NCBI GenBank assembly: GCA_022822785.1 | Contig: JAJEAL010000119.1 | Location: 1-43,238 of the forward strand | Origin: Candidatus Poribacteria bacterium | Lineage (GTDB): Bacteria > Poribacteria > WGA-4E > PCPOR2b | Direction: 5' to 3' | Length of the DNA stretch: 43,238 bases | Shown here: positions 469 to 32,253 of the stretch, piece after piece | Numbering within the stretch: the stretch's first letter is position 1 | Layout of the letters: each line of letters begins with the position of its first letter | Notes under the pieces: model-generated | What the model was told of the DNA's origin: nothing | Databases searched by the model: none | What the model saw: only the letters and a program-made list of their open reading frames with translations | Translations under genes and position numbers: made by a program

Positions 469-548
469 GAATGAAACGTGAAAACCAACTACAGAGACGT
501 AGGTTGCTTTGAATCCCGATCTTATCGAGGGGCACAGAGCAGATGGAG

Positions 549-609
549 GGAAGATTGGAAGCATGGAAGATTGGGGGGAACCCTTATCCTTCCATCTTTC
601 CAGTCTTCC
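549..609. repeat. Imperfect palindrome between nosZ and the nosD-nosF fusion gene
   Basis: Arms 549-569 and 589-609 pair over 21 positions (18 Watson-Crick, two G-U, one mismatch) around a 19-base loop. The arms are made of repeated GGAAGATTGG-like words. The element sits in the 185-base gap after nosZ, just before the start chosen for the next gene. It could attenuate or process the transcript, or be a dispersed repeat; no U-tract follows it. A shorter fragment at 514-530 resembles the CCCGAT...ATCGGG half of a repeat seen elsewhere in the window. Confidence 0.55.
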
Positions 610-653
610 ACTTTTTTCTCTGCGTCTTTGTAATAGAAAAAGAAAACGAGCTA

Positions 654-4109: not shown

Positions 4110-4145
4110 ATTATAGTCACTGCAATTTCTAACATCTCCGTTGTA

Positions 4146-4949
4146 ATGGGCAAAGAGATACAAGATTCCCGACGCAACCGATGGTTTTTGTTGTTTACGG
4201 TTGTATTTACCGGGCTAGCACTCGGTTTAAGTGTCCTTGGATTTTCGGGCTTGGGCACTTTCGGTGTAGCGGGGTTTGGACGCACAGTTGCTAGTCTTAT
4301 CAATCTTGTTGTACTGATTGCGCCGCTGATGGGTTTGCTGCTCGGAGCTATCAGTATATCGGGTGAGCGGGAACGAGGGAGTCTCCTTCCGATTCTAGCG
4401 CAACCGGTAACGCCAACGGAAGTATTACTGGGCAAATTTTTCGGCACAGCGGCAGCACTCGCTGCGGCCATCCTTTTCGGGTTCGGATTGAGCGGATTTG
4501 TAATTGCGTGGCAAGGCGGTTTCGCCCAATTAGAGGACTACCTGATGCTGGTCGGGTTGACTTTGCTGCTCGGTCTTGTTCACCTCAGCATTGGATTCTG
4601 CGTATCTGTCCTAACATCGAAAAGCGCAACAGCACTCAGCCTCGCCTTAATCCTCTGGTTGTCAATCGTATTTCTCAGCGATTTGGGGCTCATTGGGACA
4701 GCTATTGTGTTAAAGCTATCACCGGAGATACTGCTTGCGGCTGTTCTCTTGAACCCGGCACAGGTCTTCAAGTTAGCGGCTATGCAGATGATACAGGGGA
4801 ACTTAGAGCTACTCGGTGCTGCGGGACGCTATGCTGCAGATGTGATGGGAGCTTTGTTGTTACCCGTGCTGATGATATTCCTTGTTTTCTGGCTGCTTAT
4901 CCCGCTCGGCATCGCAATCTACATATTCCCACGAAGAGGTGTGCAGTGA
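4146..4949 (+). CDS. nosY: NosY, ABC-2 type permease of the Nos system
   Basis: NosY is the membrane subunit that works with the NosF ATPase and NosD in maturing the NosZ copper site. The protein has about six hydrophobic segments, and the region ISGERERGSLLPILAQPV is typical of ABC-2 permeases. The first ATG in frame is 4146, but no Shine-Dalgarno precedes it. The good AAGGAG at 4101-4106 lies before the stop of the previous gene (TGA 4107-4109), and the same frame stays open after that stop through ATT, ATA and GTC codons. The residues before the ATG (SNISVVMGKEIQDSRRNRW) look like real permease N-terminus. A non-ATG start at 4110-4118 is therefore plausible and would add 10-12 residues. 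The family call is secure; the start is not. Confidence 0.9.
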   Translation: MGKEIQDSRRNRWFLLFTVVFTGLALGLSVLGFSGLGTFGVAGFGRTVASLINLVVLIAPLMGLLLGAISISGERERGSLLPILAQPVTPTEVLLGKFFGTAAALAAAILFGFGLSGFVIAWQGGFAQLEDYLMLVGLTLLLGLVHLSIGFCVSVLTSKSATALSLALILWLSIVFLSDLGLIGTAIVLKLSPEILLAAVLLNPAQVFKLAAMQMIQGNLELLGAAGRYAADVMGALLLPVLMIFLVFWLLIPLGIAIYIFPRRGVQ

Positions 4950-5419
4950 AACAAAGACCGATGAAAGGCAAGAAAACGATTTTTTTAGATATCAAGGTAA
5001 TTGCCTTAGTCATTGGATCGGTCATGATCAGCTGTGGGTCGCAAGATAGCGGTCTGCCCCGCATCCGATACGGCGAAGAGACTTGTGACCGTTGCCGCAT
5101 GATTATCAGTGAAAAGCGGTTTGCCGCCGCATATCGCACCGATTCCGGTGCGTTGCGGAAGTTCGATGATTTGGGTTGCGCGATACTTTACCCTAAAGAA
5201 CAAGACGAAACGGTAGCCCAGCTTTGGGGCTATGACTATGAAGAGACCAACTGGTTGGATGTAAGACAAGCGTTTTTGGTACATAGTTCGGAGCTATTGA
5301 CTCCGATGGGCTATGGAATTGCTGTTCTTTCAACAGCAGAACAAGCTACAGCCCTAGCAGCGAAGATAAATGGTCGAATAGTGCAATTTGACCAACTTTA
5401 TCCACTTTTGCAACCATAA
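4946..5419 (+). CDS. nosL: NosL copper-binding lipoprotein
   Basis: NosL is a membrane-anchored copper chaperone that supplies Cu to NosZ maturation. The 157-residue frame starts at GTG 4946, overlapping the nosY stop (GTGA), with AGAGG about seven bases upstream. ATG 4961 is an alternative. A hydrophobic segment ends in a lipobox-like MISC, followed by the NosL hallmark CDRCRMII and a conserved region ending DDLGC. Cys and Met in this region are the likely Cu(I) ligands by family knowledge. Tight coupling to nosY and the nos order make the call firm. Longer upstream extension in the same frame only overlaps nosY and is not supported. Confidence 0.93.
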   Translation: MKQRPMKGKKTIFLDIKVIALVIGSVMISCGSQDSGLPRIRYGEETCDRCRMIISEKRFAAAYRTDSGALRKFDDLGCAILYPKEQDETVAQLWGYDYEETNWLDVRQAFLVHSSELLTPMGYGIAVLSTAEQATALAAKINGRIVQFDQLYPLLQP

Positions 5420-6294: not shown

Positions 6295-8757
6295 CTACAT
6301 CGCAAACCAATATCGACATTTCACAAGGAAAATATTCGACCCGGCATCGGTAAAACTGGTTCTTAACCGATGGAGCGGACGAAAGTCGAGGTCCGCTTCT
6401 CCCACATGTGTTAGATCTGCTTCGCGTGATTGGGACCAAACTAGGAACAGCGTGCTTCCGGGGCGGAACTCCCACCGAAGCACGGTGTTGCCTCGCAATG
6501 ACCGTAGGTGGAAATCACGGTTTTCGCTTAGTGGATACGGCTTGAACTGATAGGATTTCGGTTCGACTAACTCCTTGAAATTGGTGTAGTCCCCGATGGT
6601 GATGAAGGGTTGCACATAAAACTGGAGGCTCAACGTCGGTGTAAAGCTAATGTTCGCCCGGGTGGTGAAGTCAAGCGTGCGGCTTATCAATTCTCCATAG
6701 ACATAGTGTCTTAGAGTTTCCCCGTTGATCTCCTTTTCAATCAGATCGACCCATTGGGCATCCTTCACCTGATAGGTATAGCTTGGACCAATACTTAACT
6801 CAATGTTGGATGCGGGACGAATACGTAAGGATAGGTCCACATTATAGTCATACGAATGCCTATCATCGTTCCAAGCGAAAACAGGGTTCAATTGGAGCTG
6901 AACCATTTTGCGGTCATCGGTCGAGAGTCCGGTATAAATCCACCAACCTGCGGGCTGCTTAATTAGTGTCCCACCACGTCTAACATCGTTGTCACTAAAA
7001 GTTTCTAGAATGCGTCCCACCCAAAGATCGTAACCCCAATAGTTTTTGAAACGTGCGTTTGTCCATAACTCGACATAACCGCTGATGTGGACGCGGTCAT
7101 AATTCCAAGACTGCCAGCCAAATAGTCCTAAGGTAGCTTCACGGAAAATGCTGAACGGCTTCTCTTTCCGCACAGTGAGGTCGTAATTCCACTCCATCAT
7201 GTTGGCGCGCCGAAGGAATCCCAGATCGTTTATCTCTAAATCCGGCGAGAGCATCCTAAAATTGGTTTCCCCTCTTAACCAGCCACCGTGTTTGTCTAAC
7301 TCAACGTGTGCAAGATATCCTGACCGGCGCCCCTCCTGTTTTCCTGCGTGACTTGCGGCGAATGTACCGGTAAATTGAAATTTCTCTTCCGCAAACTTCA
7401 CATCCCAGTCCAAGCCACCGACATAAGCGGAGTTAGAATCTTTTCGATTTACAGCGGTCATTATCAGTCCAATAACCGAGTTTCCTTTCAGCACGTCCTG
7501 ATTGACTCGACCAACAAAATAGTTGGTTAGCGGTTCCACGAGGAACTCTCGTTCGATCTTTTCCCCGTTGACCTTTTCTTCAATTTGTGCGTACTCCGGC
7601 GCGGTGATCGCCTCCATAATACCGAAGTGGGTGCTGCCTTGGGTTTTGCCTACAATTTTGCTTGCACCGAGAATTGTAGTTGATTCCGGACGGCTCAGTT
7701 CGGTGGCACCTTTGGGCAGTTCAAAATGCCCCGGTCGCCGCCCAATTCGTCGTGAGTAAAGGAAGCTATAGTCCAAGTTGCCAAAGATCCTTGCCCCCTT
7801 CACAAAGAAGGGGCGACGCTCATTAAAATACTCCTCGTAAGCTGAAAGATTTAAGCTGGCCGGGTCCGCCTCAACCTGTCCGAAGTCGGGATTAATCGTG
7901 GCATCGAGTGAAATCCCAGAGCTGATCCCATATTGAACATCGGTGCCAACGTTGCCCCACAAGTCAGTTTCATCATTATCGCTGAAATGTGTGCGCCCCA
8001 TCACATAGGGCACAATTTCCAGATGATGGGACGGATGGATATTTTTAATGCCGGCGAGATCTCCAAACCGGGCTGCCCAACCGGGTTCATCGCGCTTGAT
8101 GAGACGCCAGTGATCCTGTTCTTTTTTACGACTGATGTGTCGTTCGACCTGTAGTCCCCACGTGTATTCATCTTTTGGCGAGAAGCGCAGTATGTGGAAT
8201 GGGATTTTATATTCTGCTGCCCAGCCATCGTCGTGAATCCCGGTTTTCACTTCCCATACGCCATCCCACGTGCTGTCCCACCAGCCGGTTTCGGGCCTGA
8301 TCCCATCAGTCACGGACCCAGAAGGATAAACGGTAAACCAGAATGCACTCTGGCGACTATAGTGTGGGTCAAGACTAATCGTGACTTTATCCGATTCGAC
8401 CTCATGGTCTCGTCTGACGAGTCGGGAGACAATTTTATCAGGTTCGCTATCGTAGCACATCACCCCAAAATAGACCGCTTCGTCATCGTAGGCGATTTGG
8501 ACCGTGGTACGTTCCGTTGCGGGTCTTCCCTCATCGGGATCGCGCTGGTAAAAGTCTTCGTGAAGAGGTGCGCTTTCCCATATCTCGTCGTCCAAAACGC
8601 CATCTAACTGCGGTGGTACGCCGTTAATTCGGATGGCGGTCGCGGTTCGGTGATGCGGGTCTGCCTCGTCTGCAGCCTGTGTGTCGCCTGGGGATTGAAC
8701 CGCTAAAAAGATGGTCAGAAACGCCCAGACGCCCCAATAGTCGAAAACAAATTTCAC
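6295..8757 (-). CDS. DUF5916 protein with N-terminal CBM9-like domain (copy 1)
   Basis: This 820-residue exported protein begins at GTG (complement of 8755-8757). A signal peptide is followed by a CBM9-like domain from about residue 40 (IRINGVPPQLDGVLDDEIW, then the YDDEAVYFGVMCYD strand). The long C-terminal part has alternating aromatic beta strands typical of DUF5916 and probably forms an outer-membrane barrel. Motifs INPDFGQVEADP and NERRPFFVKGA are characteristic of DUF5916 proteins. The substrate is unknown; sugar binding is suggested only by the CBM9-like part. It is a tandem paralogue of the gene upstream (8882-11356), with the same length, GTG start and leader. Family call strong, function unknown. 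Confidence 0.9.
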   Translation of the reverse strand: MKFVFDYWGVWAFLTIFLAVQSPGDTQAADEADPHHRTATAIRINGVPPQLDGVLDDEIWESAPLHEDFYQRDPDEGRPATERTTVQIAYDDEAVYFGVMCYDSEPDKIVSRLVRRDHEVESDKVTISLDPHYSRQSAFWFTVYPSGSVTDGIRPETGWWDSTWDGVWEVKTGIHDDGWAAEYKIPFHILRFSPKDEYTWGLQVERHISRKKEQDHWRLIKRDEPGWAARFGDLAGIKNIHPSHHLEIVPYVMGRTHFSDNDETDLWGNVGTDVQYGISSGISLDATINPDFGQVEADPASLNLSAYEEYFNERRPFFVKGARIFGNLDYSFLYSRRIGRRPGHFELPKGATELSRPESTTILGASKIVGKTQGSTHFGIMEAITAPEYAQIEEKVNGEKIEREFLVEPLTNYFVGRVNQDVLKGNSVIGLIMTAVNRKDSNSAYVGGLDWDVKFAEEKFQFTGTFAASHAGKQEGRRSGYLAHVELDKHGGWLRGETNFRMLSPDLEINDLGFLRRANMMEWNYDLTVRKEKPFSIFREATLGLFGWQSWNYDRVHISGYVELWTNARFKNYWGYDLWVGRILETFSDNDVRRGGTLIKQPAGWWIYTGLSTDDRKMVQLQLNPVFAWNDDRHSYDYNVDLSLRIRPASNIELSIGPSYTYQVKDAQWVDLIEKEINGETLRHYVYGELISRTLDFTTRANISFTPTLSLQFYVQPFITIGDYTNFKELVEPKSYQFKPYPLSENRDFHLRSLRGNTVLRWEFRPGSTLFLVWSQSREADLTHVGEADLDFRPLHRLRTSFTDAGSNIFLVKCRYWFAM

Positions 8758-8797
8758 AGTTGTTTTTTCTCCTTTGCGTAGTTGTTTGACTATTGAA

Positions 8798-8835
8798 TCC
8801 CCTTTGCGGAAGATACTTCAGATTTTTTTACTGCC
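8798..8835 (-). promoter_or_regulatory. Conserved leader upstream of DUF5916 copy 1
   Basis: On the minus strand this segment reads TAAAAAAATCTGAAG, then a short variable part and GCAAAGGGG. The same block, with few changes, precedes the paralogue at 11398-11437, at a similar distance from the start codon. It may be a shared promoter-proximal or 5' untranslated element kept since the duplication. No clear -35/-10 pair is visible in it. Confidence 0.5.
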
Positions 8836-8881
8836 CATTTGAAGGCTCTGACCAAACTCTAACGCTGAAAGGTTTGGCACA

Positions 8882-11356
8882 CTACAGTCCAAACCAATAA
8901 CGACATTTTATGAGGAAGATATTCGACCCGGCATCGGTGAAGCTACTACCTAAGCGATGTAAGGGACGAAATTCGAGGTCTGCCTCTCCTACACGCGTTA
9001 GATCAACATCGCGTGATTGCGACCAAACCAAGAACAGTGTGCTGCCGGGGCGGAACTCCCAGCGGAGAACGGCGTTGCCCCGCAACGACCGCCGATGGAA
9101 ATCCCGGTTCTCGTCCAGCGGATAGGGCCTGAACTGATATGACTTCGGTTCTACGAGTTCCTTGAAGTTGGTATAGTCGCCGATCGTTACGAAGGGTTGC
9201 ACGTAGAGCTGCAAACTCAGGGTCGGGGTAAAACTGATATCCGTACGCGTGGTGAAGTCAAGCGTTTGAGTTTCTAACTCCCCATAGACATAGTGTTGCT
9301 GGACATGTCCGTTGATATTCTCTTCGACCAGATCCACCCACTGTGCATCCTGTGTGCCAACTCTATATGAAGGTCCAAGGGTTACTTCAATATTCGAGGC
9401 GACGCGGATGCGTAGCCGGAGGCTTACATCATAGCCATAAGTCTGCCTGTCATCCCAGAAAAAAACAGGATTCCACCAATAAGGATTCAATTGCAGCTGA
9501 ATCCTCTTCCGACTATCAGTCGCGAGCTGTGTAAGGATCCCCCAACTTGCAGGATTCTTAATCAGAACTCCGCCACGTCGGACGTCATCATCATTAAAGG
9601 ATTCAAAGCTGCGGAGAACTCCCAGTGTATACTCCCAATAATTCTTAAATTGACCACGTGTCGATATATTAAAGTAGCGACCGATATTGACACTGTCGTA
9701 GTTCCAGGTGAGTTGGGTAAAGGAAACAAGAGTGGCTCGTCTGAAGATGCTAAATGGCTGCTCTTTGTTCGCGGTAAGGTAATAACTCCATTGTATCATA
9801 TCAGCACGCCAGCGAAAACCGAGGTCGTTCATCTCGAAGTCAGGTGACAACGCCTGCAAATAGGTCTCACCTATCAACCACCCGCCTCGTTTATCAAACT
9901 CAATGAGTGCAAGATATCCCGATTTGCGTGCATCCAGTTCCCCAGTGCGACTTCCCGCGACGGTGCCGGTTATCTGATACTGATCGCTGGCAAATCTCAA
10001 ATCCCAATCAATTCCACCGACATAGGCGGAGTTAGAATCCCTTCGATTCACGGCGGTTGTTATTAGCCCAACGGTTGAGTTCCCTTTTAGAACGCTCTGC
10101 TTAACTCGGCCGACAAAATAATTGGTTAACGGTTCGATGAGGTACTCACGTTGGACTTTCTTACCATTGACAACCTGTTCAATCTGGGCGTATTCAGGGG
10201 CAGTGATTGCCTCCATGATGCCAAAAGAGGTCCCGGCTTCCGTTCTACCCACAATTTTACCGGCACCGAGAATCGTTGTGGCTTCCGGCCGACTTAGTTC
10301 AATGGCATCGTCGGGCACCCCGAAATGCCCGGGGCTTCGCCCGATTCGACGTGAGTAAAAGAATGAGTAATCGGCGTTTTCAAAAGCGGCCGCATCCTTG
10401 ACAAAGAAGGAACGACGTTCCTGAAAAAATTCCTCATAAGCCGAGAGATTTAGCGTCGCCGGATCGGCTTCCACCTGTCCAAAATCAGGATTAATCGTTG
10501 CGTCGAGTGTAATGCCGGAGGTAATCCCATATCGCACATCGGTGCCACCACCACCCCACAAGTCGGTGCCATCATTAAACCTAGTGCGTCCCATCGCATA
10601 AGGGACTATCTCAAGATGACGGGAGGGGCGGATGTACTTGATGCCCGTGAGATCTCCAAAACGAGACACCCAGCTAGGCGCATTGCGTTTGACCAGACGC
10701 CAGTGGTCCTGTTCTTTTTTTCGACTGGTGTATCGCTCGACCTGTAGCCCCCACGTGTATTCATCTTTTGGGGAAAAGCGCAAGATATGAAACGGGATTT
10801 TATATTCTGCTGCCCAACCATTCTCGTGGATCCGGACCTTCACGGCCCACACACCGTCCCATGTATCATCAAACGGCGGACTATATTCATCAGTAACCGT
10901 GCCATCGGTGACAGACCCCGAAGAATAAACGGCAAACCAAAACCCGCGCTGCCGGTTGGGATGCGGGGCAAGACTGACGGTGACTTTATCCGATTCAATA
11001 TCGGCATCTCGCCTAACCAACCGCGAGACAATTTTATCGGGTTCGCTATCGTAGCACATCACCCCAAAATAGACCGCTTCGTCATCGTAGGCGATTTGGA
11101 GCGTGGTACGTTCCGTTGCGGGTTTTCCCTCATCGGGATCGCGCTGGTAAAAGTCTTCGTGAAGAGGTGCGCTTTCCCATATCTCGTCGTCCAAAACACC
11201 ATCTAACTGTGGGGGTGCACCGTTAATGCGGATAGCACTTGCGGTTCGGTGATGCGGATCTGCCTCGTTGGCAGCTTGTCCCTTGCGTGGAAATTGAGCC
11301 GCTAAAAGTATGATGATCACCGTCCAGACGACACAAAAATCGAAATTATTTTTCAC
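8882..11356 (-). CDS. DUF5916 protein with N-terminal CBM9-like domain (copy 2)
   Basis: This 824-residue paralogue of the neighbouring 6295-8757 gene has the same architecture: signal peptide, CBM9-like domain (IRINGAPPQLDGVLDDEIW), DUF5916 motifs (NPDFGQVEADP, ERRSFFVKDA) and a barrel-like C-terminus ending YWFGL. The start is GTG (complement of 11354-11356), with AGAGGAA about ten bases before it and a longer AAGGAGG further up. The two copies are moderately diverged over most of their length, but 185 bases in the CBM9-like region are almost identical. It is likely surface-located. Divergence in barrel loops between the copies suggests different ligands, an inference. Confidence 0.9.
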   Translation of the reverse strand: MKNNFDFCVVWTVIIILLAAQFPRKGQAANEADPHHRTASAIRINGAPPQLDGVLDDEIWESAPLHEDFYQRDPDEGKPATERTTLQIAYDDEAVYFGVMCYDSEPDKIVSRLVRRDADIESDKVTVSLAPHPNRQRGFWFAVYSSGSVTDGTVTDEYSPPFDDTWDGVWAVKVRIHENGWAAEYKIPFHILRFSPKDEYTWGLQVERYTSRKKEQDHWRLVKRNAPSWVSRFGDLTGIKYIRPSRHLEIVPYAMGRTRFNDGTDLWGGGGTDVRYGITSGITLDATINPDFGQVEADPATLNLSAYEEFFQERRSFFVKDAAAFENADYSFFYSRRIGRSPGHFGVPDDAIELSRPEATTILGAGKIVGRTEAGTSFGIMEAITAPEYAQIEQVVNGKKVQREYLIEPLTNYFVGRVKQSVLKGNSTVGLITTAVNRRDSNSAYVGGIDWDLRFASDQYQITGTVAGSRTGELDARKSGYLALIEFDKRGGWLIGETYLQALSPDFEMNDLGFRWRADMIQWSYYLTANKEQPFSIFRRATLVSFTQLTWNYDSVNIGRYFNISTRGQFKNYWEYTLGVLRSFESFNDDDVRRGGVLIKNPASWGILTQLATDSRKRIQLQLNPYWWNPVFFWDDRQTYGYDVSLRLRIRVASNIEVTLGPSYRVGTQDAQWVDLVEENINGHVQQHYVYGELETQTLDFTTRTDISFTPTLSLQLYVQPFVTIGDYTNFKELVEPKSYQFRPYPLDENRDFHRRSLRGNAVLRWEFRPGSTLFLVWSQSRDVDLTRVGEADLEFRPLHRLGSSFTDAGSNIFLIKCRYWFGL

Positions 11357-12369: not shown

Positions 12370-12749
12370 TTTGCTCTATATCCTTTCTTGTAACAGACTG
12401 AAGTTGGGCTTCGAGAATTCAATACCGCAGATTGGCAAGATTGCCTCCTTCTTCAATTATACCCTTCACACCCAATTATTGAAATTAAACATTTGTCAAA
12501 GTCAATCCATTTGCGCTGGGATATTCACTGCGGATTCAGAATTATCAAGGGGAGTTAATGGAAAAGACAGATTAACACCAAAAGACGAAAGCACGAGGTC
12601 AATTATCGCAGCGAACCAACAGGATATCTTGACATTGACAATGTGCGGGTCAAGTCGTATAATTTGGCGGGTTCAACCGAATTGATTTTCAAAACGCCAT
12701 GCAGATTGCACTACAAAAAGAGATCCTTTCTTACTTTAGGGATTGCAAG
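12370..12749. other. Intergenic region before the selenoprotein gene
   Basis: This 380-base gap between divergent genes carries the promoter for the + strand gene at 12635-12663. It contains no convincing gene; a possible earlier ATG at 12699 lies in frame with the downstream gene but lacks a ribosome site. Confidence 0.5.
12635..12663 (+). promoter_or_regulatory. Perfect sigma70-type promoter
   Basis: TTGACA (12635-12640) and TATAAT (12658-12663) are separated by 17 bases, an exact match to the sigma70 consensus. A second overlapping TTGACA begins at 12629. Transcription would start near 12670, about 80 bases before the chosen ATG of the selenoprotein gene. Confidence 0.8.
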
Positions 12750-14324
12750 ATGGAAACTTTTCCAAACAAAATCACTCTCAATCTTGATGATGATTCAGAA
12801 GTGTCAGTCAAAGGCTTCATCGCCCCGATTGAGTATACCGGATCCAACTTCCATGTGGAGTGGGACGCGTTGGCGAATCTGCGAGCCGCCGAGCCAGAAA
12901 AGCAGTACGCTGCGTCTATTTTTCTCGCTTTTCTACCGCACACCCCTGTTTCTGTTGGCGAGCTCTGGCAGATAGAACAAGATGGTGTTCTGGAACTGCT
13001 GAAACAACTTCACCCCGATCCGCATCTGAATATGCATATTGATGCGGGGGATTCCAAAGGATTGTGGGCATGTCTGCGTGCTTACAATGATAGATTTGCT
13101 GACATCGTGTTTCGCCTCCACGCAGAATTCACTTTAAAGGACGGTTGGTTCACACCTTCACAGTTTGCCGGGCATCTCCTTATTGACCGAATTGAAGAAA
13201 GGGTCGTCTCCTACAAGATGCACGTTCCTGAAGGCACATTGAACTTTGATGTCAACTGGAAGAGAGACAAAGACGACTCTGGTTTCTTTACGGATAGTGG
13301 CTTTTGCCCGCGAATGGAACTACGTGCCGGGACGCAAAGTGTCGTGCAAGACATGGAATTCGCGGAAACCATTACCCAAGAAGAAGCTGAGCACAAACTG
13401 ATCCTCTGTTTCTACGAATGGCAGCGAATTAACTGGGTACCGGTGGACAAGGCGTTGGATATAGCACGGGCACAGCAGAAGCCGATTCATGCTGTATCAG
13501 TAGACGGCCCGCTCGCTGACGAATCATGCTGAGGGAGCGGTAAAAGCCTGAGAGCAGTTGCTCTCTCTGACGAACGAAACATAGAATTCTTGAACGAAAA
13601 TTTCATCAACACTTGGGTGTCCAATGCCGAATTAGGGCGTATTCCTGGCTTGCAAGCCCCTATTACGATGAGACGGGAGCGCGAATCCAAGGTGTTTGAC
13701 ACAACACAGCCATTGATACAAGCAATTATTAGGGGAGGGAAGACAGGCTCAAAGAAAGCCTCACCCGTGGATTGTTTAGTCATATCGCCTGAACTTGAAC
13801 TGATGGGTCGTCAACCCATTAATGAACTCTACGGTGAAAGCAGGCGTAGAGGCCTCCGGTACGCCGAGGGTTACTTTATGTTTCTCGTAGAATCCTTAGA
13901 AGGGAAACAGCCGGGATTGGGGAACGTTATCCTCAATAATGAGCAACCCTTGCAGAAGGTATTGGACATTTTTCGGACACCGATGATTGGCTATCACGAT
14001 TACACTGTTGTTGTAATTGATGCAAGGGCGTTTGAAGATGGCGGCACACTAACGATTGATATTGAAGTAGGTAGGGGACAGGGGGCAGGTTCGTTTTTTT
14101 TGTTCGATGGCAACAGCGAACTCTCAAAAGAAAAAGTGCCCAAAGGCACTCTTGCCAGGGCGTGGCTTATCTCACCAGGTGATACAGGGCAAATCACACA
14201 TCATTTCGACTATGGCAAGATGTTTAAATTGGGTGCTAGCGGACAGTGGACCAATGAGAGAGGGACAGTTAATGCCTTTCAGGCAAGAATTTCTGTAGAA
14301 ACACCAAAAAAGAACGAAAGTTAA
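12750..14324 (+). CDS. Selenoprotein N (SELENON)-like selenoprotein, in-frame UGA = Sec
   Basis: The 524-residue protein is read through an in-frame TGA at 13530-13532, giving Sec 261 after Cys 260. The frame continues without a stop to TAA 14322-14324. The context is DESC-U-GSGKSLR, a thioredoxin-like redox motif. From memory, animal SELENON has the same SCUGSG motif followed by TLRE and NESFISTW; here the text is NENFINTW. The upstream part also matches SELENON: WFTPSQFAG, VPEGTLNFDVNW, PRMELRAG, then WVPVDKALDIARAQQK. The C-terminal part (PVDCLVISPELEL, YFMFLVESL) is alignable too. No signal peptide or EF-hand is seen, so the protein is probably cytoplasmic. AGGGA 12738-12742 lies seven bases before ATG 12750, favouring this start over 12699. 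The exact reaction is unknown; SELENON is a thiol redox protein in animals. Sec synthesis genes are outside the window. A routine annotation would split it into two ORFs. Confidence 0.9.
13550..13565 (+). promoter_or_regulatory. Candidate bacterial SECIS stem-loop
   Basis: GAGAGC and GCTCTC form a perfect six-base stem around the loop AGTT. The loop begins 23 bases after the TGA, within the usual spacing for bacterial SECIS elements, and has a G as its second base, which SelB recognition normally needs. The stem lies inside the coding frame, as expected in bacteria. Confidence 0.8.
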
Positions 14325-16347: not shown

Positions 16348-16359
16348 TTGAGGACCGCG

Positions 16360-17022
16360 ATGGCACTCTTAACAATCACAAATCTAGAAAAAGCTTACGT
16401 CTCACCTGAAGGTTTAGAAACGCGCATCATTAATGTTCCTTATTTTGAGATAGATGAGGGTACGCAGATCGCGCTCAGAGGAAGTAGCGGGGCGGGAAAA
16501 ACAACATTTCTGAACCTCATCGCTGGAATCTTGCAAGCTGATAGCGGAAGCATTAGTCTCGCCGGCGAAGAGATGACCGTCCTGTCAGAATCTGAACGTG
16601 ATAGATTACGTGCCCACCATATTGGGTATATTTTCCAGACCTTCAATCTGCTTGCGGGTTACACAGCTCTAGAGAATGTGATTCTCGGCATGATGTTTGG
16701 AAACGGGGTTGACATTAATTTCGCGCGACAGTTGCTTGAGCGGGTAGGACTTGGTGACCGGATGCAGTATCGCCCTTCCCAACTATCGGTCGGGCAGCAG
16801 CAACGCGTTGCGGTTGCCCGCGCCATCGCGAATCGACCACGGCTCGTACTCGCTGACGAACCGACCGGCAATCTGGATTATCATTATGCGAACGAAGCTA
16901 TCAGCCTGATCCGTGAAATTTGTCATGAAAACAGTGCGTCGTTACTTATTGTTAGTCATGATTCGGAAGTTTTAGGGCAATTTGCGGAAGCAAAGGATTT
17001 CGCACAAATAAATTGTGTATAA
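16360..17022 (+). CDS. ABC transporter ATPase, MacB/LolD type
   Basis: The 220-residue ATPase starts at ATG 16360, six bases after GAGG; the frame reaches back to a TTG at 16348 that looks less likely. It has Walker A GSSGAGKT, the Q-loop FQTFNLL, signature LSVGQQQR (a VGQQQ variant), Walker B LVLADEP and D-loop GNLD. This is the MacB/LolD class, which powers permeases that do not move substrate across the inner membrane in the usual way. It follows merC by 12 bases. The FtsX/MacB-type permease at 17163 is its partner despite the 140-base gap. In Vibrio a comparable pair belongs to the ZrgABCDE zinc system (from memory). Confidence 0.92.
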
Positions 17023-17042
17023 AAAAACGCCAATAAGCACAA

Positions 17043-17064
17043 AGCGGGGCGCGATGCCCCGCCT
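17043..17064. repeat. REP-like hairpin (GGGC-GCGAT-GCCC type)
   Basis: Arms GCGGGGC (17044-17050) and GCCCCGC (17056-17062) enclose GCGAT, followed by CTAC. It lies inside the ABC operon between ATPase and permease and matches the style of 6245-6267. It may protect or limit the upstream mRNA. Confidence 0.75.
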
Positions 17065-17162
17065 ACCTTAGCCCTTGAATCTCTCTGCAAACGGGGAAAG
17101 TTGGACCCCTCGTAGCAGCGTTTTAGCTAAACTTATGTTGTACGATTCCTGAACATGAGCCA

Positions 17163-18428
17163 ATGAAAAAACAGATTGGGTTGTTTTTTATTGTTCAACG
17201 CAGCCTTCGCCAACACGCACTTTCGACACTCATCACGATGGTATCAATCGCACTTGGCACGGGACTAGTTATGGCGGTCATTGCTATAAGAACACAGTCT
17301 GTTTTCGCGTTCACAGGGGGTCCGATAGGTTTTGATGCCGTTTTGGGCGCACGTGGTAGTCCGTTACAATTGGTGCTGAATACGGTTTTTCATCTCGAAA
17401 CCTCGCCGGGGAATATCCCGTGGGCGATGTATCAAGCCGTGGAAAGTGACCCGCGTGTTGACCTCGCCATTCCTTACGCGCTTGGCGACAATTATCACGG
17501 TTTCCGCATCGTCGGTACAACAACAACGCTGTTCACGGAGTTTGAATACCGCAAAGGGGCTCGCTTTCAAACACAAGGGGAGGGGCGTTTTTTCGATCCC
17601 AACCGTCAGGAGGCAGTCATTGGTAGTTATGCCGCACAGAAGTTGGGCTTAGAGGTGGGCGATCAATTCAACCCGTATCACGGCTTAGTGTTTGACGAAT
17701 CCATGCGGCATGATGAACAATATGTCATTGTTGGTGTGCTCGAACCAACCAATTCACCATCCGACCGCGTCATCTGGATTCCAATTGAGGGGATTTATCG
17801 GATGGAAGGGCATGTGTTGCGCGGCAGCGGCGAAGACTATGTCGCTCAACCCGGTCGAGAGATACCGGACGCACACAAAGAGGTCAGCGCAGTTATGCTC
17901 AAGTTTCGGAATCCGCAGATCGGTTTCATGATGGACGCCATGATTAACAAACAGGGGAAGGTCGCAACGTTGGCATGGCCCATAGGTGCGGTGATGGCAG
18001 GACTGTTTGACAAAATCGGTTGGATGAACCAAATTCTAGCACTTGTTTCCTATCTCGTTGTGCTCGTCGCGAGTGGTTCGATTCTCGCCAGCATCTACAA
18101 CTCAATCAACGAGCGGCGCCGTGAGTTCGCGATTTTGCGGTCGCTCGGTGCGCGCCGCAGAACGGTGTTCACAGTAATTGTGATGGAGGCAGCATCAATT
18201 GCCATGTTGGGAGCTTTGATAGGATTTATCGTTTACAGCGCGATTTTTACGTCGGCGTCCGCAATTGTCCGCGCCCAGACGGGCATCGTTCTAGACCTGT
18301 TTCAATTTCACTCTGTGTTCGTGGTCGCTCCGGTCTGCGTGGTGCTCTTAGGCATCATGGCTGGCATTGTACCTGCATTTAAGGCGTATCAGACAGATGT
18401 CGCGACGAATTTAACCCCCGTAAGTTAA
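17163..18428 (+). CDS. ABC transporter permease, FtsX/MacB type
   Basis: The 421-residue protein has one N-terminal helix (LITMVSIALGTGLVMAVIAI), a large periplasmic domain of about 230 residues (MacB-PCD type), and three C-terminal helices forming an FtsX domain. The motif NERRREFAILRSLGARR is the cytoplasmic coupling segment of this family. The partner ATPase is at 16360-17022. Neighbouring DUF3299 and His-rich lipoproteins point to a metal-linked export or delivery role, as in Vibrio Zrg. The ribosome site before ATG 17163 is weak. Confidence 0.9.
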   Translation: MKKQIGLFFIVQRSLRQHALSTLITMVSIALGTGLVMAVIAIRTQSVFAFTGGPIGFDAVLGARGSPLQLVLNTVFHLETSPGNIPWAMYQAVESDPRVDLAIPYALGDNYHGFRIVGTTTTLFTEFEYRKGARFQTQGEGRFFDPNRQEAVIGSYAAQKLGLEVGDQFNPYHGLVFDESMRHDEQYVIVGVLEPTNSPSDRVIWIPIEGIYRMEGHVLRGSGEDYVAQPGREIPDAHKEVSAVMLKFRNPQIGFMMDAMINKQGKVATLAWPIGAVMAGLFDKIGWMNQILALVSYLVVLVASGSILASIYNSINERRREFAILRSLGARRRTVFTVIVMEAASIAMLGALIGFIVYSAIFTSASAIVRAQTGIVLDLFQFHSVFVVAPVCVVLLGIMAGIVPAFKAYQTDVATNLTPVS

Positions 18429-18515
18429 TGCGAATTTAACCATGCAGCAGATCCGATACAATTTGTCAAATCTAAGTTCGCCGCCGGTGAGCTTTTTGCA
18501 TGAAAGGTTATCATT

Positions 18516-19040
18516 ATGAAAATCCCAAGATTTATATTGATATGGACAGCAATTTTAGCGATTACTATAACCCAATTGAGCTGCGAGGACAAGGAGGCAC
18601 AACATCCCAAACAGGAAGAAAAACAGGAAACCGATACACATCACGAACATACGGCACCCCACGGTGGAACCTTGGTTGTCTTCGGCGATGAGTTCGCGCA
18701 CATTGAATTTCTACTGGAAGAAGCCAATGGAAAACTAACTGGTTACGTGCTAGATGGCGAAGCGGAAAACCCAGTCCGACTCTCGCAGAAGACAATTGAA
18801 CTCAAGATACATCAAGAAGATACCCAGTCCGACTTTACGTTGCAACTTTCAGGCGTCGAAAATGTGCTCACCGGAGAGGCGGAAGGTGATACCTCTCAAT
18901 TTGCAGTACAATCGGACGCGTTAAGGGGCGTATCGGAATTCCACGCAGAAATCGTTTCCATTACCATCAAAGGTCAGAGGTTCACAGACATTGATTTTGA
19001 ATTTCCCGAAGGGAACGAGGGAACGCATAGCGACCATTAG
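18516..19040 (+). CDS. Metal-associated lipoprotein
   Basis: The 174-residue protein has a signal peptide with a lipobox LSC at about residue 23, a polar linker with THHEH, then HGGTLVVFGDEFAHIEFLLE and GKLTGYVLDGEA. The HGG...G...aHiE...G.l..Y.lD pattern recurs in small periplasmic proteins beside heavy-metal or zinc transporters. It ends in THSDH. AAAGG lies about nine bases before the ATG. It likely binds a metal ion outside the inner membrane and may hand it to the ABC system. Confidence 0.75.
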   Translation: MKIPRFILIWTAILAITITQLSCEDKEAQHPKQEEKQETDTHHEHTAPHGGTLVVFGDEFAHIEFLLEEANGKLTGYVLDGEAENPVRLSQKTIELKIHQEDTQSDFTLQLSGVENVLTGEAEGDTSQFAVQSDALRGVSEFHAEIVSITIKGQRFTDIDFEFPEGNEGTHSDH

Positions 19041-19056
19041 TTAGGAGACAAGAAAG

Positions 19057-19812
19057 ATGAGCTCATCTAAAACGCAACAGCGATGGCGCCCGTGGGTGAG
19101 GTTCGCAATGGTTGCCGCGGTTGTCGTAGGGCTGTCTCTCGGCATTTTTCAACTGATTCCAGAATCGCATCCGATGCGGGCGCTTCAGGGTATGACCGCA
19201 GGAACAGATAAAGTCATCGAACCGGTTACCGTGCAAGGCGTCCCGTTAACAACCACGGGAGGGACCGTTGACATACCTCAATCGGGAGACGGTACAGGTG
19301 CACAACCGACGCCGACTGCTGCTGCACCGGTTCCCAAGCGTAGGGGCGGTCAGAATGCAGACCAGAAAGACGGGTATCAATTGCTCACCTTCGACACGTT
19401 GATCAGCTACCCAATCAAAGAACCAAATTGGGCAAAAATGACCGACCCAGTCTACATTTCCTCACTTAATCTCGACGCGCAGATTGCCCCGGCGCTTCAA
19501 GCGATGAACGGGAAGAAAGTGGAGATACAAGGCTTTATGCTGCCGCTCGATATGTCAGACGGTAATCTTCAGACATTTATGTTGCTCAAGGACCAGATGG
19601 CGTGCTGCTTTGGCAATATCCCACGCCTGAATGAGTGGGTGTATGTCCGGGTGCCAAAAAAGAAGCAAATCAACGTCCACCAAGATGTGTTGGTAACGTT
19701 GTTCGGCACGTTGCACGTCGGGGCAAAGTTTGAACAGGAAATACTCACCGGCATCTACCATCTTGACCTAGATCGGATACAGGTCAGCACACTCCGACTT
19801 GATAGATTGTGA
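19057..19812 (+). CDS. DUF3299 protein, membrane-anchored
   Basis: The 251-residue protein has one N-terminal helix (FAMVAAVVVGLSLGIFQLI), a Pro/Thr/Ala-rich linker (~70-100), and a C-terminal DUF3299 domain: NGKKVEIQGFMLPLDM, then QMACCFGNIPRLNEWVYV with a CC pair. DUF3299 proteins are found with MacB-type transporters in zinc loci; the function is not settled. It starts 16 bases after the lipoprotein gene with AGGAG upstream, and its stop lies just before the next gene, so the genes are probably co-translated. Confidence 0.88.
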   Translation: MSSSKTQQRWRPWVRFAMVAAVVVGLSLGIFQLIPESHPMRALQGMTAGTDKVIEPVTVQGVPLTTTGGTVDIPQSGDGTGAQPTPTAAAPVPKRRGGQNADQKDGYQLLTFDTLISYPIKEPNWAKMTDPVYISSLNLDAQIAPALQAMNGKKVEIQGFMLPLDMSDGNLQTFMLLKDQMACCFGNIPRLNEWVYVRVPKKKQINVHQDVLVTLFGTLHVGAKFEQEILTGIYHLDLDRIQVSTLRLDRL

Positions 19813-19840
19813 TATAATGGTAAAGGGAGGCATGAAAACA

Positions 19841-20908
19841 ATGAAAAAGCTGGTGCTTTTTTTATTAATACTTGGTGTATCTGTCGCCTGCGCCTTAGCT
19901 CAAAGCCAGCCGCCTGAAGAGCTGAAGACATTCACGCCAGATAAAGAGGGAAATATATTCATGTTTGGAGGCAGTCAGTTCCGAGCGGCAACCGAACGTA
20001 TCAACGGAAGCATTGCGCTCAACCCCGACGCGCTGCATAAGACGTTTAAGGCGATGTTCCAACTGGATATGAAACGCCTGAAAATAGAAACTGTTATTGA
20101 TAGGGGGATACAGAAGGTTGTGTGGAACGCCGCTGTCTACCCGCAAGCCATTCTTCGGATTGAAAGCCTAGATGTCGTAGAAGATGTCGGTCTGGTTGAT
20201 GGCTTACCCATCACGACTGATGCCAAGGCGACCTTTGAGTTCCACGGTGTCAAGAAGTCGGTGGAGTTGAAAGATTTACGGTTTACCTATTTTCCAAAAA
20301 ACAGTCGGTTTGTCCAATGGTTACCGGGTGATGTCCTGCGGCTCGTTGGCGGGTTTGAAATCGAATTTGAGGATTACAACGTTGAGACAAAGCCGGAATT
20401 GACTTCGCCAATTTCGATCCACTTTAGTCTTTTTGCCGTTGATATCGCTGAAGCGGTCTCCGTGCCCGCCGAAAGGATTGGTGACTATCTACGCGTTCCG
20501 TTCAGTTTTCTCGGTGACTATTGGCTTGATGAGCCGGACTGGCAGAAGCTGACAAACCCTCAATACATAGCTTCGCTTTCTTACGAGAAGCAGATCCCCG
20601 ATAAAGTTAAACAGATCGATGGGGAAAAGGTCGCTATCACAGGATTTATGCTTCCGATTGACGTTGATAAAGGGAAGGTTCGTCGATTTTTGCTGATGAA
20701 ATCGACGATGTCGTGCTGTTTCGGCGTCGCCCCACGTATTAACGAGCTAGTCTACGTCGAATCACCAAAAGAGCGGAAGATTCAGGCGGTGATGGATATG
20801 CCAATCACTGTTTTTGGTAAACTGTCGGTCAGCCAGCAGTTTCGGGAAGATCTGATGCTGATGGGGGTCTATCAACTAGAGTTAGATAAGGTAAAACGTG
20901 CGCGATAA
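19841..20908 (+). CDS. YceI-like domain fused to DUF3299
   Basis: The 355-residue exported protein combines a YceI-like beta-barrel (about residues 30-205; FEFHGVKKSVELKDLRFTYF) with a C-terminal DUF3299 domain (GEKVAITGFMLPIDVDKG, TMSCCFGVAPRINELVYV). The CC pair is kept. A signal peptide (KKLVLFLLILGVSVACALA) precedes the YceI part. GGGAGG at 19825-19830 favours ATG 19841 over ATG 19832, 19817 or TTG 19799. Together with the preceding DUF3299 gene it forms a tandem pair. YceI binds hydrophobic polyisoprenoid-type ligands in other proteins, so this fusion is unusual in a metal locus. Confidence 0.85.
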   Translation: MKKLVLFLLILGVSVACALAQSQPPEELKTFTPDKEGNIFMFGGSQFRAATERINGSIALNPDALHKTFKAMFQLDMKRLKIETVIDRGIQKVVWNAAVYPQAILRIESLDVVEDVGLVDGLPITTDAKATFEFHGVKKSVELKDLRFTYFPKNSRFVQWLPGDVLRLVGGFEIEFEDYNVETKPELTSPISIHFSLFAVDIAEAVSVPAERIGDYLRVPFSFLGDYWLDEPDWQKLTNPQYIASLSYEKQIPDKVKQIDGEKVAITGFMLPIDVDKGKVRRFLLMKSTMSCCFGVAPRINELVYVESPKERKIQAVMDMPITVFGKLSVSQQFREDLMLMGVYQLELDKVKRAR

Positions 20909-21029
20909 ACAGAACAATCTAAGGCATCAGTTGTCGCACCGTAGGGGACACGCCGCGAAGTGGTTGAGTTTTTTGCTACTCGCCATTTTCCTGATTCATT
21001 CGGACGCCCAATCAAAGGCAAGTGTGTAG
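20898..21029 (+). pseudogene. Possible remnant of a signal-peptide gene start
   Basis: A 43-codon frame from GTG 20898, overlapping the end of the YceI-DUF3299 gene, encodes a signal-peptide-like stretch (KWLSFLLLAIFLIHSDAQSKA) and then stops. It resembles the second signal segment of the TonB receptor (KWLRLVLSAIFLMYF...SSFA). It could be the former start of the receptor gene, left behind when the block at 21140-21690 came between. This is inference, and the frame could be noise. Confidence 0.35.
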
Positions 21030-21109
21030 AATCTATCCCTGATACTCCCACTGTAGATGGGAAATCCCTACTTCACTATCCTTGGCAGCCGATTGGTAAA
21101 ATAGAAAAC

Positions 21110-21138
21110 TGTCGAAGTTAATCCCCTTGTGTTATAAT
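21110..21138 (+). promoter_or_regulatory. Possible promoter before His-rich copy 2
   Basis: TATAAT at 21133-21138 preceded by TGTG gives an extended -10; the -35 (TGTCGA region) is poor. It lies 50 bases before the TTG start, like the promoter of copy 1. Confidence 0.45.
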
Positions 21139-21187
21139 GTTTTTATTCAGTTTCCAAATATCCCACTCTTGAAAGAGGTAAAGGCTC

Positions 21188-21508
21188 TTGCAGAGCGATC
21201 GAATCCACATTTATCCAACTCGCTGGATAATTGCGCTGGGTATTTCTTATTGCCTGATGGCAATAAGCTTGGTTGGACTTCCACATGAACATGAACATCA
21301 CCACGAACATGACCATACGCACCACTGTTCGACAGATTGCTCTGCTTGTTTCTTCAGTGCCAATCACGTCGGTATAGAATTTGATCAGGTTGACACTGCC
21401 AATGTTGATACGTGCATCTCAATCCACCCGCCTTTCGACTCTACTTTCATTTTCACGACACTCAGCAAAAGTATCCAAAGTCGTGCCCCACCAGCGTTCT
21501 CCGCTTAA
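21188..21508 (+). CDS. Small His-rich membrane protein, DUF2946-like (copy 2)
   Basis: The 106-residue protein starts at TTG 21188 after AAAGAGGTAAAGG, nearly the same leader as copy 1 at 14801. One helix (RWIIALGISYCLMAISLVG) is followed by HEHEHHHEHDHTHH, then STDCSACFFSANHVGIE and a C-terminal SRAPPAFSA. The core aligns with copy 1, whereas the His run differs in sequence. It precedes the TonB receptor and probably works with it in zinc or copper handling at the envelope. Confidence 0.78.
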   Translation: MQSDRIHIYPTRWIIALGISYCLMAISLVGLPHEHEHHHEHDHTHHCSTDCSACFFSANHVGIEFDQVDTANVDTCISIHPPFDSTFIFTTLSKSIQSRAPPAFSA

Positions 21509-21638
21509 TTTGTTGGTCTAATCCATATTCCTGCTTTTGTTTAATTAATTGCTGCCTTTCCCGGCGGATTTGATGCTAGTGTTAGTATGCCTCAGTTATG
21601 GTGCTGGGAAGACGATCTATTTATATCTAGAGGAAATT

Positions 21639-23897
21639 ATGTTTACCTGTTTTTTTAAATGCACCTTGTTACTGATTACATTTACTGTGAAGTGGCTCCG
21701 TCTTGTGCTATCTGCTATTTTTCTCATGTATTTTATAGAAGGTAGCTCCTTTGCCCGCAATATCTCCATCTCAGGAGAGGTGATTGATGCAGCGACGGAA
21801 ACTCCCCTTGTGGATGTCCATGTATCCCTGTTGCTCGACAGGGAAGGCACATCTTTGTTCCGAACCGGTAGGACCGGGCAATTTCGGTTTGACGACATTG
21901 CGCCGGGGACATATATACTTCGCTTCGAACGTGTTGGCTATGAAACATTAGATCAGGAAATCGTCGTCGATACAGAGCCGATGATAATAACTGTCAAATT
22001 AAAACATACCTCGTACCGACTCGGAGAAGTGGTTGTCACACCGGGTGATGAAGAACACGCTCATTTTGATAAAACAACCGACCTGAATGTGTCCGCACAG
22101 GAGCTTGACCGGCAGATGGGGGCAACGATAGCCGAGACACTCAGCGGAGAAGTCGGAATCGCACAGCGGACGATGGGCAGAGCCACCGCGCGCCCGGTGA
22201 TTCGGGGCATGGGTGGCGGTCGACTACTTATCCTTGAAGATGGCGGTCGCACCGGCGATAAATCTGCGTCCTCAGCAGATCACGCGGTCGCAATCGACCC
22301 CACCACGGCGACAAGTATCGAAGTTACACGCGGGCCGGCATCTTTAATCTACGGCTCAAGTGCACTTGGCGGCGTCGTCAATGTCAAGCGCGAGACTATC
22401 CCGCAAACGCTGCCCCACCGTCCAACGATGAACCTCACATTTCAGGGTGAGTCGGTCAATTCGGGGTTGACCGGAACCACAGGATTTACAATTCCGATCG
22501 GTGACCTTGCGTGGCGACTGGAATTGAACCGCCGCCGCACCGATGATACGCATACCCCTATCGGCATTCTAGACAACACGTCACTATCACAAACCAATTT
22601 TTCGACCGGTCTGGCAATGGTCAAGGATTGGGGGCATATCGGTATCTCCGGTGCGAGTTACCGCTCAGATTATGGGGTTCCCGGTTCACCGGAGGGACAT
22701 ATCCACGGCGTCACCATCGACCTTGACCGTCAGCGGTATGAGGGTGATTTTGAGTATGGATTTCAGCAGTCGTTTCTTGAAAAACTGAAAATTCACTCGA
22801 CCTACACACGCTATCAGCATCAGGAACTTGAAGCAAACAAGACACTCGGTGTTGAGTTTGGAGTTCTGACAACCAACATCTCCGCGTTGGCTTATATGCG
22901 TGGCGACGCGGTTGCCGGGGTTTGGGGCGAGTACCGTGACCATGCGACGGGCGGGTTTTACTGGACACCACACACACGGGAAATGTCGGTGGCGGGATTC
23001 TATTTGAAACAGAAACGACTCAACGAAGATTTAACACTACAAGGCGCGATTCGCTACGATGTCAGGCGGGTTGAACCGTTTAGGGAAGGTACTGTCACCC
23101 GCGCGGGAACGGTGGAACGACGGGACTTCGGCGGCCTATCAAGCGCAGTTTCGGGGATTTATCATTGGGATGACCACCTGGAAACAGGCGCCACCTTGAT
23201 GAAGACGTTTCGCACACCGGGAATCGAAGAACTTTTTTCAGATGGTCCTCATCTCGCCGTCTACTCCTATGAGATCGGTAATGCCGAACTCGGTTCGGAG
23301 GATGGATTCGGGACAGAGGCGTTTCTGCGCTATTCGGCGAAACATGTGAAACTCAATCTCACTGCTTTTCGCAACCAGATTTACAGTTACCTGATTTCGA
23401 CCAACATAGGGGAAAAGGAGTGGGGAAGTGGTGCAGCGGGATGGCTGTGGATATATCAATACCAGGGGCAGAATGCCATCCTTGAGGGTGCCGAATTTAG
23501 CGTTGATGCCGAAATTAGCCCACGATTTCAGGCGGAGGCAAGCACAAGTTACGTCAGAGGGACATTGGCAGACAGTGGATCACCACTTGAACGCATCCCC
23601 CCGCTCAACGGAAAAGTGGCGCTGCGATACGTCACGCAGCCGCTAAACCTGCATTTCACGGCGCGATTTTCAGATGGTCAGCACCGACTTGGCGAGTTTG
23701 AAGAGCCAACGGATGGATACATCGTCTACGATGCAGGTCTTCAGTTCTCGTTCCCATGGTGGCAACTTCAGCATCAGGCAGTTGTTACGGTCGAGAATAT
23801 CTTCGATACCGAATATCGTCAGCATCTTTCGAGAATCAAATTGGTGATGCCGGAGCCGGGACGGAACCTCAAACTTCTGTATCGACTGATTTTTTAA
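21639..23897 (+). CDS. TonB-dependent receptor, ZnuD-like
   Basis: The 752-residue outer-membrane receptor has a carboxypeptidase-regulatory-like domain (ISISGEVIDAATETPLVDV), a plug with RPVIRGMGGGRLLILEDG and SADHAVAIDP, and a barrel ending in Phe (LLYRLIF). The IRG.G..R...L..G....D.S..S.DHAVA pattern matches ZnuD-type zinc receptors (from memory). The start ATG 21639 follows TAGAGGAAATT. The N-terminus carries two signal-like segments in a row: FTCFFKCTLLLITFT, homologous to the start of the lipoprotein at 15244, and KWLRLVLSAIFLMYF. An in-frame GTG at 21687 would give only the second. Its place at the end of the metal locus supports uptake of zinc or a zinc complex. Confidence 0.92.
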   Translation: MFTCFFKCTLLLITFTVKWLRLVLSAIFLMYFIEGSSFARNISISGEVIDAATETPLVDVHVSLLLDREGTSLFRTGRTGQFRFDDIAPGTYILRFERVGYETLDQEIVVDTEPMIITVKLKHTSYRLGEVVVTPGDEEHAHFDKTTDLNVSAQELDRQMGATIAETLSGEVGIAQRTMGRATARPVIRGMGGGRLLILEDGGRTGDKSASSADHAVAIDPTTATSIEVTRGPASLIYGSSALGGVVNVKRETIPQTLPHRPTMNLTFQGESVNSGLTGTTGFTIPIGDLAWRLELNRRRTDDTHTPIGILDNTSLSQTNFSTGLAMVKDWGHIGISGASYRSDYGVPGSPEGHIHGVTIDLDRQRYEGDFEYGFQQSFLEKLKIHSTYTRYQHQELEANKTLGVEFGVLTTNISALAYMRGDAVAGVWGEYRDHATGGFYWTPHTREMSVAGFYLKQKRLNEDLTLQGAIRYDVRRVEPFREGTVTRAGTVERRDFGGLSSAVSGIYHWDDHLETGATLMKTFRTPGIEELFSDGPHLAVYSYEIGNAELGSEDGFGTEAFLRYSAKHVKLNLTAFRNQIYSYLISTNIGEKEWGSGAAGWLWIYQYQGQNAILEGAEFSVDAEISPRFQAEASTSYVRGTLADSGSPLERIPPLNGKVALRYVTQPLNLHFTARFSDGQHRLGEFEEPTDGYIVYDAGLQFSFPWWQLQHQAVVTVENIFDTEYRQHLSRIKLVMPEPGRNLKLLYRLIF

Positions 23898-29349: not shown

Positions 29350-29439
29350 ACTTTTCCTCCTGAAAGAATGATGTAGTACGATGGTAGTTATACCACGGAT
29401 TCGCGGTCTAAGTCAAGTGGCGAGTTCACCGCTTTTTTA

Positions 29440-29468
29440 TTGGCACACTCGCGACTTTCGGTTATAAT
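29440..29468 (+). promoter_or_regulatory. Sigma70-type promoter of VOC gene
   Basis: TTGGCA (29440-29445) and TATAAT (29463-29468) have 17-base spacing, about 90 bases before ATG 29561. Confidence 0.65.
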
Positions 29469-29560
29469 AACGCAAGTTACAGCACATTGCTTCAAATCCC
29501 AGTTTATCAAGGTGGAGTGCGCCCACTACTTTATAAATAATTCTAAAGAGGAGTATCAGT

Positions 29561-29974: not shown

Positions 29975-30349
29975 TTCTGCACTACTATTAATCCAAGTCG
30001 CTGTGTAAGCCGCTGCCCACAGAGCCAAAATGAGGGCTGTTCCTTTCCAACCAGGTCGGAGAATCCCCCGATCGGGGGATTCAAAGCAACGTGCCTATTA
30101 CTACCAACTTGTGGCAGAAAACAATTATGGTAGATTTTAGAATTAATTGGACACTCTGTACCGGCGAGGCCCGGAAACCACGCCGACCAAGGATGGAAAA
30201 ATCCGGGCTATCACCCCGGTAGGTGCGATTGCTAACCGCACCGCATAGGCGCAGTTGGAAACAGCGCCTACCAAACATGGGAAGCGAAGGTTTCTATTTA
30301 TTTTTAGAATTCACCATAAATCGCTGGAAAAGACAGGTAGGGTGTATCA
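29975..30349. other. Intergenic region with three hairpins
   Basis: The 375-base gap holds GAATCCCCC...GGGGGATTC (30061-30083, loop GATC), which is a plausible terminator-type stem, then GGTGCG...CGCACC (30222-30227 / 30237-30242) and TAGGCGC...GCGCCTA (30246-30252 / 30264-30270). The last two lie four bases apart, close to the lipoate ligase start. No gene was seen. Confidence 0.6.
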
Positions 30350-32229: not shown

Positions 32230-32253
32230 TATTCTTGGCTCATATAAAAAGAA

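Follow-up and report, generated by a model that had tools for sequence, protein, structure and literature searches.

We found that the stretch of DNA analysed here, a poribacterial contig of 43,238 nucleotides referred to below as the window, carries a gene that with a probability of roughly 0.88 encodes a bacterial selenoprotein belonging to the SELENON (selenoprotein N) superfamily. Its internal UGA at 13530 would be decoded as selenocysteine (Sec), and the product would probably carry out thiol/selenol redox cycling in the cytoplasm. The gene occupies positions 12750–14324 of the forward strand, ends at a TAA stop and would yield a protein of 524 amino acids with Sec261; the coordinates and length given in an initial annotation of this DNA were correct. 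The ATG at 12750 is a start common to a close homologue (L018) and most other homologues, and by sequence a Shine-Dalgarno-like AGGGA (12738–12742, forward strand) lies 7 nt upstream of it; starting from another in-frame ATG, at 12699, would lengthen the protein by 17 residues. Only one internal TGA, at 13530–13532, is present in this frame, in the context DESC-U-GSGKS, which predicts the tripeptide Cys260-Sec261-Gly262. The assignment of this codon to Sec draws on its conservation, on dN/dS and on the tRNASec of the genome, whose anticodon is UCA.

The window gene was compared with L018, a 90%-identical homologue. The dN/dS ratio was 0.235 upstream of the TGA and 0.199 downstream, and third-position changes were in excess both before and after the codon, indicating that the second half of the gene is translated in frame. 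Both sides of the TGA are under equal purifying selection (0.24 and 0.20), in agreement with the earlier proposal that two same-frame ORFs join across 13530–13532 with coding sequence on either side. A reassigned genetic code for TGA was considered and rejected: of the 16 window genes with Pfam support, 6 terminate with TGA, so that this codon is an ordinary stop in the window genome.

Conservation of the codon was followed through the homologues. TGA occupied the Sec position in 173 of 176 aligned positions in a first set of relatives. Among 205 distinct homologues whose motif region is intact, the position was UGA in 201, Gly in three, Ser in one and Cys in none; the Cys-containing homologues that the initial annotation had suggested looking for were therefore absent from this set. 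The Gly or Ser variants (L112:6543 and, likewise on the forward strand, L069:6251 and L066:3591; L113 on the minus strand) are otherwise intact proteins, which indicates that not every copy strictly needs Sec at this position.

A putative bacterial Sec insertion element (bSECIS) follows the UGA. Its apical hairpin at 13550–13565 (forward strand) consists of a 6-bp stem GAGAGC/GCUCUC and a loop AGUU that follows the UGA by 23 nt; counted from the U of the stop codon, the hairpin occupies nt +20 to +35, and by itself it has a folding energy of −8.3 kcal/mol. Taken by itself, the hairpin was unexceptional against shuffled sequences, single-sequence folding z-scores were uninformative, and the RNA-family search proposed earlier gave only chance Rfam matches in the UGA region. 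The case for a bSECIS therefore rests on comparison. Normalised synonymous entropy per codon, calculated from 146 aligned homologues, had a mean of 0.70; across 427 five-codon windows the minimum fell precisely at codons 268–272, the one place where synonymous variation collapses, with a value of 0.14 against a median of 0.70 (sd 0.09), and the four lowest of the 498 individual codons were 270, 260, 269 and 272. In the first set of homologues, at least five of the six pairs were kept, in one of two registers, in all 141 distinct elements, and two stem pairs displayed compensatory exchanges (G-C/A-U at one and G-C/G-U/A-U/U-A at the other). When all classes were considered (164 distinct elements), the loop started 21–27 nt from the U of UGA, at 26 nt in 139 of them, and 159 had a G among the first two nucleotides of the loop. 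The bSECIS model in section 5 of PMC13188914 specifies a loop of 3–9 nt, a stem of 4–16 bp, a G in the first two loop positions, a distance of 16–37 nt from the UGA and an MFE of −7.5 or lower, and the window element falls within every constraint published there. The synonymous trough, the compensatory changes and the fit to the model in that section argue that the candidate bSECIS noted earlier is real.

The genome containing the window (5.6 Mb, 96% complete) encodes the machinery for Sec insertion. One cluster at C141:29392–32865 holds selA (29392–30750, 589 bits) and selB (30826–32718, 367 bits), both scoring over their family cut-offs, together with tRNASec (32776–32865, 74.6 bits), for which ARAGORN made an independent tRNA-SeC call with anticodon UCA. 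On another contig (C25), selD (367 bits) is itself interrupted by an in-frame TGA, in CGUAAK, and the hairpin that follows has the apical loop AGUU, as in the window gene. Across the phylum, tRNASec is present in 73 of 85 genomes. All four genes that the initial annotation had proposed to look for (selA, selB, selC and selD) were thus found, and its reading of the TGA as Sec agrees with the retention of this codon, coding on both sides and the presence of the sel genes.

The SELENON-like family occurs in most of the poribacterial genomes searched. A scan of the genome collection with peptide patterns, which reach close relatives only, recovered 69 loci, all poribacterial, and a whole-genome search placed the family in 65 of the phylum's 85 genomes, with members in f1, f2 and f4, families of a single order. 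Outside the phylum, about 300 genomes gave only two weak matches (E 1e-4 and 4e-6), which we assume to be general thioredoxin-domain matches; no relatives were found in viral contigs or plasmids. Copies were counted from core matches only, because initial per-genome counts were inflated by proteins sharing just the C-terminal domain. The window genome has a single copy. Two genomes (G071 and G054) have 15 core matches each, every one with exactly one TGA, and G081 has 17, including pieces of broken genes. Tandem arrays were found, with eight copies in a run at C38:59.7–72.7 kb of G071 and eight within 13 kb at L022; the gap was 100 nt or less in 52 of 81 neighbouring gene pairs, mostly with about 1 nt from stop to start, a tight spacing that resembles that of operons. 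These copy numbers are large beside the 57–63 genes of the record whole bacterial selenoproteomes given in PMC13188914, in a comparison that sets one family against entire selenoproteomes. The paralogous family in one poribacterial order, its tandem arrays, its additional architectures and the absence of Cys homologues all go beyond the initial annotation.

No single partner recurs beside the family's genes except ECF sigma genes carrying a shared domain, described below. Elsewhere in the window there is a fused Nos-type cluster (543–5419, forward strand), in which a single 1188-aa ORF combines an ABC ATPase with a NosD-like beta-helix region; genes for an ABC-2 permease and a NosL-like protein come after it. 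Two tandem DUF5916 proteins of ~820 aa, with weakly CBM9-like N-terminal parts, are encoded at 6295–11356 on the reverse strand. A row of genes at 16348–23897 (forward strand), resembling a metal-uptake or efflux cluster, encodes an ABC ATPase and permease of the MacB type, a pair of DUF3299 proteins, of which one includes a YceI-like domain, and also a TonB-dependent receptor.

The predicted protein divides into three domains. The N-terminal, mainly beta domain (residues 1–200; 12750–13349) is common to SELENON from about residue 40 and contains Cys108. The second domain (residues 205–385; 13362–13904) is thioredoxin-like and carries the CUG motif, and the third (residues 391–519; 13920–14306), all three being on the forward strand, is a beta-sandwich that is not found in SELENON and also ends ECF sigma factors of relatives. 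AlphaFold2 modelled the whole protein with a pLDDT of 85 and the core with a pLDDT of 90.7 and a pTM of 0.87. Foldseek placed the second domain nearest to DsbH-type folds (7tkv, 2ju5), AGR3/AGR2, ERp19 and UAS domains (E 3e-4 to 5e-2) and returned no convincing PDB match for the N-terminal domain; the C-terminal domain resembles the beta-sandwiches of binding modules. PADLOC and PDB sequence searches assigned the window protein to no family. A hydrophobic, signal-peptide-like N-terminus was present in 45 of 186 relatives and absent from the window protein, consistent with the cytoplasmic appearance described for it earlier.

Homologues occur in three architectures. Some consist of the core alone (~360–400 aa; L129, L130, L109 and L110), others join the core to one or two beta-sandwich domains, of which the window type has one, and a third class (L104–L108 and L035) joins it to an AhpC-TSA/Redoxin (TlpA-like) thioredoxin domain, recognised by Pfam in the three fusions analysed with E-values down to 4e-22. 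Among them, L108 alone has an intact CxxC (WCGFC) in its TlpA domain; in the others the motif is degenerate (WNSFC or WNGFC). We also observed a BlaR1/M56-like membrane protein, identified by eye, near a SELENON-like gene (L079:1468–5197, forward strand); it contains TlpA-like stretches, one of them closely resembling the domain that the fusions add to the SELENON core.

Relatedness to animal SELENON was assessed with a human sequence reconstructed without a database record, in forms of 590 and 556 residues. Published positions are available for the long form (Sec462, Arg466 and codon 315, c.943G; PMC12839072) and the short form (Asp80, Met85, Tyr86, Cys49, Cys108, Cys243, Cys427 and Sec428; PMC7474598), and the reconstructed sequence fits all 11 of them. 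Against this sequence, the window protein gave a BLOSUM score of 349 over residues 40–302, compared with 37±4.6 for shuffles (maximum 63), and still scored 261 when the motif was masked. The family HMM matched the reconstructed human sequence with 192 bits, divided between the beta domain (87.7) and the thioredoxin domain (99.5), and the TlpA-fused class scored 444 over human residues 160–505. By these sequence measures, the likeness to SELENON is clear over the first 390 residues and extends well beyond SCUG, as had been claimed from the letters of the gene. In the alignment to the reconstructed sequence, Cys108 lines up with human Cys243, and the pair Cys260-Sec261 with human Cys427 and Sec428; Cys108 is kept in 145 of 146 sequences and is Ser in some f2 copies. 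Pfam detected no EF-hand in the window protein, in 31 homologues or in further classes, as anticipated for the window protein, and the conserved element sits inside the ORF, not in a 3′ UTR like a eukaryotic SECIS. The core similarity, combined with the lack of a detected EF-hand, marks the window protein as a relative of SELENON and not as animal SELENON itself.

These observations suggest a mechanism. The UGA at 13530 would be decoded as Sec by the genome's own SelA, SelB, tRNASec and SelD, under the direction of the hairpin at 13550–13565, to give a 524-aa, probably cytoplasmic protein made of a SELENON core and a beta-sandwich domain. Its most likely function is that of a Cys-Sec thiol/selenol oxidoreductase with the thioredoxin fold of the DsbH/AGR/UAS type. 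A vicinal Cys-Sec pair in such a fold suggests that Cys260 and Sec261 would cycle, most likely, between the selenol/thiol and selenenylsulfide states, and in reduced form would reduce a disulfide or oxidised thiol of a partner. Mammalian thioredoxin reductase is known to run a selenenylsulfide cycle at its GCUG terminus, a motif compared with that of SELENON in PMC12839072. The pair would most likely be re-reduced by a thioredoxin- or TlpA-type protein: the natural joining of core and TlpA-type domain in one protein points, indirectly, to an electron partner of the thioredoxin type, with the CxxC of that domain degenerate in most fusions. Sec insertion in the cell, the redox cycle, the electron donor and the location are all inferred.

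If the UGA were a true stop, the region would hold two adjacent ORFs or a decayed gene. Standard ORF calling does produce two ORFs, 12699–13532 and 13590–14324, the split that the initial annotation had foreseen, and neither Pfam nor NCBIfam names a family for the joined protein. However, a dN/dS of 0.20 downstream of the UGA, its retention in 201 of 205 genes with coding conserved on either side, the synonymous constraint at the hairpin and the complete Sec machinery make this reading practically untenable, and comparison of the sequences has already refuted it. Alternatively, the gene could encode a genuine selenoprotein whose likeness to SELENON is confined to the thioredoxin (DsbH/UAS) domain, so that the SELENON name would be a misfiling. 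The best PDB folds are indeed general DsbH/AGR/UAS domains, and the human sequence is a reconstruction; yet the 87.7-bit HMM segment is independent and covers profile positions 80–195, outside the thioredoxin domain, and the motif-masked score and the extent of the TlpA-fused alignment likewise render a misfiling highly improbable.

A role mainly in sensing or regulation was also considered, in which the beta-sandwich domain, carried also by presumably membrane-anchored ECF sigma factors near exported copies, would draw the selenoprotein into a signalling complex, with Sec acting as the sensor of oxidants. Close to SELENON-like genes of relatives, often those with signal peptides, we observed ~29 ECF-sigma-type proteins that share the beta-sandwich C-terminus (L082:7669–8998 on the forward strand, L047, L061, L112, L117 and ~24 others), and in the single example examined a transmembrane-like segment accompanies sigma-70 regions 2 and 4. 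Such proteins and the neighbouring, exported copies could form regulator-selenoprotein pairs, and they are the evidence that favours a sensor. In the window genome, however, the selenoprotein holds the only copy of the domain and there is no such sigma factor, and many family copies have no beta-sandwich domain, so that we regard a mainly regulatory role as unlikely and retain the cytoplasmic Cys-Sec oxidoreductase as the preferred reading.

Poribacteria are known from marine sponges, which makes gene transfer between bacteria and animals an attractive idea. Animal SELENON might descend from a poribacterial gene of the sponge-symbiont type by ancient horizontal transfer, with the bSECIS replaced by a 3′ UTR SECIS and an EF-hand and membrane anchor gained; we offer this scenario tentatively and consider it rather doubtful. 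A tree of 57 core sequences resolved two deep, well-supported poribacterial clades, and the reconstructed human sequence joined the branch between them on a very long branch (1.84) that leaves its placement unsure, as flagged by the program. It is a possibility that the bacterial form represents the ancestral redox core of SELENON. SELENON loss leads to congenital myopathy, and the redox chemistry of the protein is hard to study because it is a membrane-anchored eukaryotic selenoprotein. A sequence search of the PDB found no SELENON structure, and none had been solved as of a 2020 study (PMC7474598). With a soluble bacterial core and thioredoxin-type fusions, the structure, redox potential and electron donor would become directly testable.

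Lobanov et al. 2007 (PMC2375036) described SelN as apparently animal-specific; the genes reported here would extend the family into a bacterial phylum known from sponges, with an unusual expansion to as many as 15 Sec-containing paralogues per genome and no Sec-to-Cys replacement seen. Ordinary annotation cuts such genes at the UGA and would conceal them. The initial annotation had allowed that SELENON-like genes might already be known in Poribacteria. Our search of open-access literature, with subscription papers, preprints and database annotations outside its range, found no paper on poribacterial selenoproteins that would confirm this, and neither a term search nor the table passages of the 2026 prokaryotic selenoprotein catalogue (PMC13188914) yielded SELENON; a prior mention of a bacterial SELENON is possible.

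The bacterial selenoproteins in Table 1 of PMC13188914 share with the window gene a bSECIS-type element, decoding by SelA/B/C/D and a redox setting, but those families are mostly of the CxxU or UxxC type, and no SELENON family was found in the passages concerned. Animal SELENON and the window protein have in common the SCUG motif, with Cys next to Sec, a core of ~350 residues composed of beta and thioredoxin-like domains, and a third cysteine (human Cys243, Cys108 here). Calcium-dependent redox trapping of SERCA-type partners is a mark of animal SELENON proper. Animal SELENON possesses an EF-hand and a single N-terminal membrane anchor and resides in the ER lumen, whereas the window protein has neither feature and instead carries the C-terminal beta-sandwich domain that animal SELENON lacks. 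The poribacterial genes have a bSECIS within the ORF and form multicopy tandem arrays in relatives, in contrast to the 3′ UTR SECIS of animal SELENON. The DsbH, AGR2/AGR3, ERp19 and UAS domains have the same fold as the Sec domain of the window protein, but belong to proteins that lack the beta domain of SELENON, and their motifs are mostly of the CxxC or CxxS type, whereas Cys and Sec are vicinal in the window protein.
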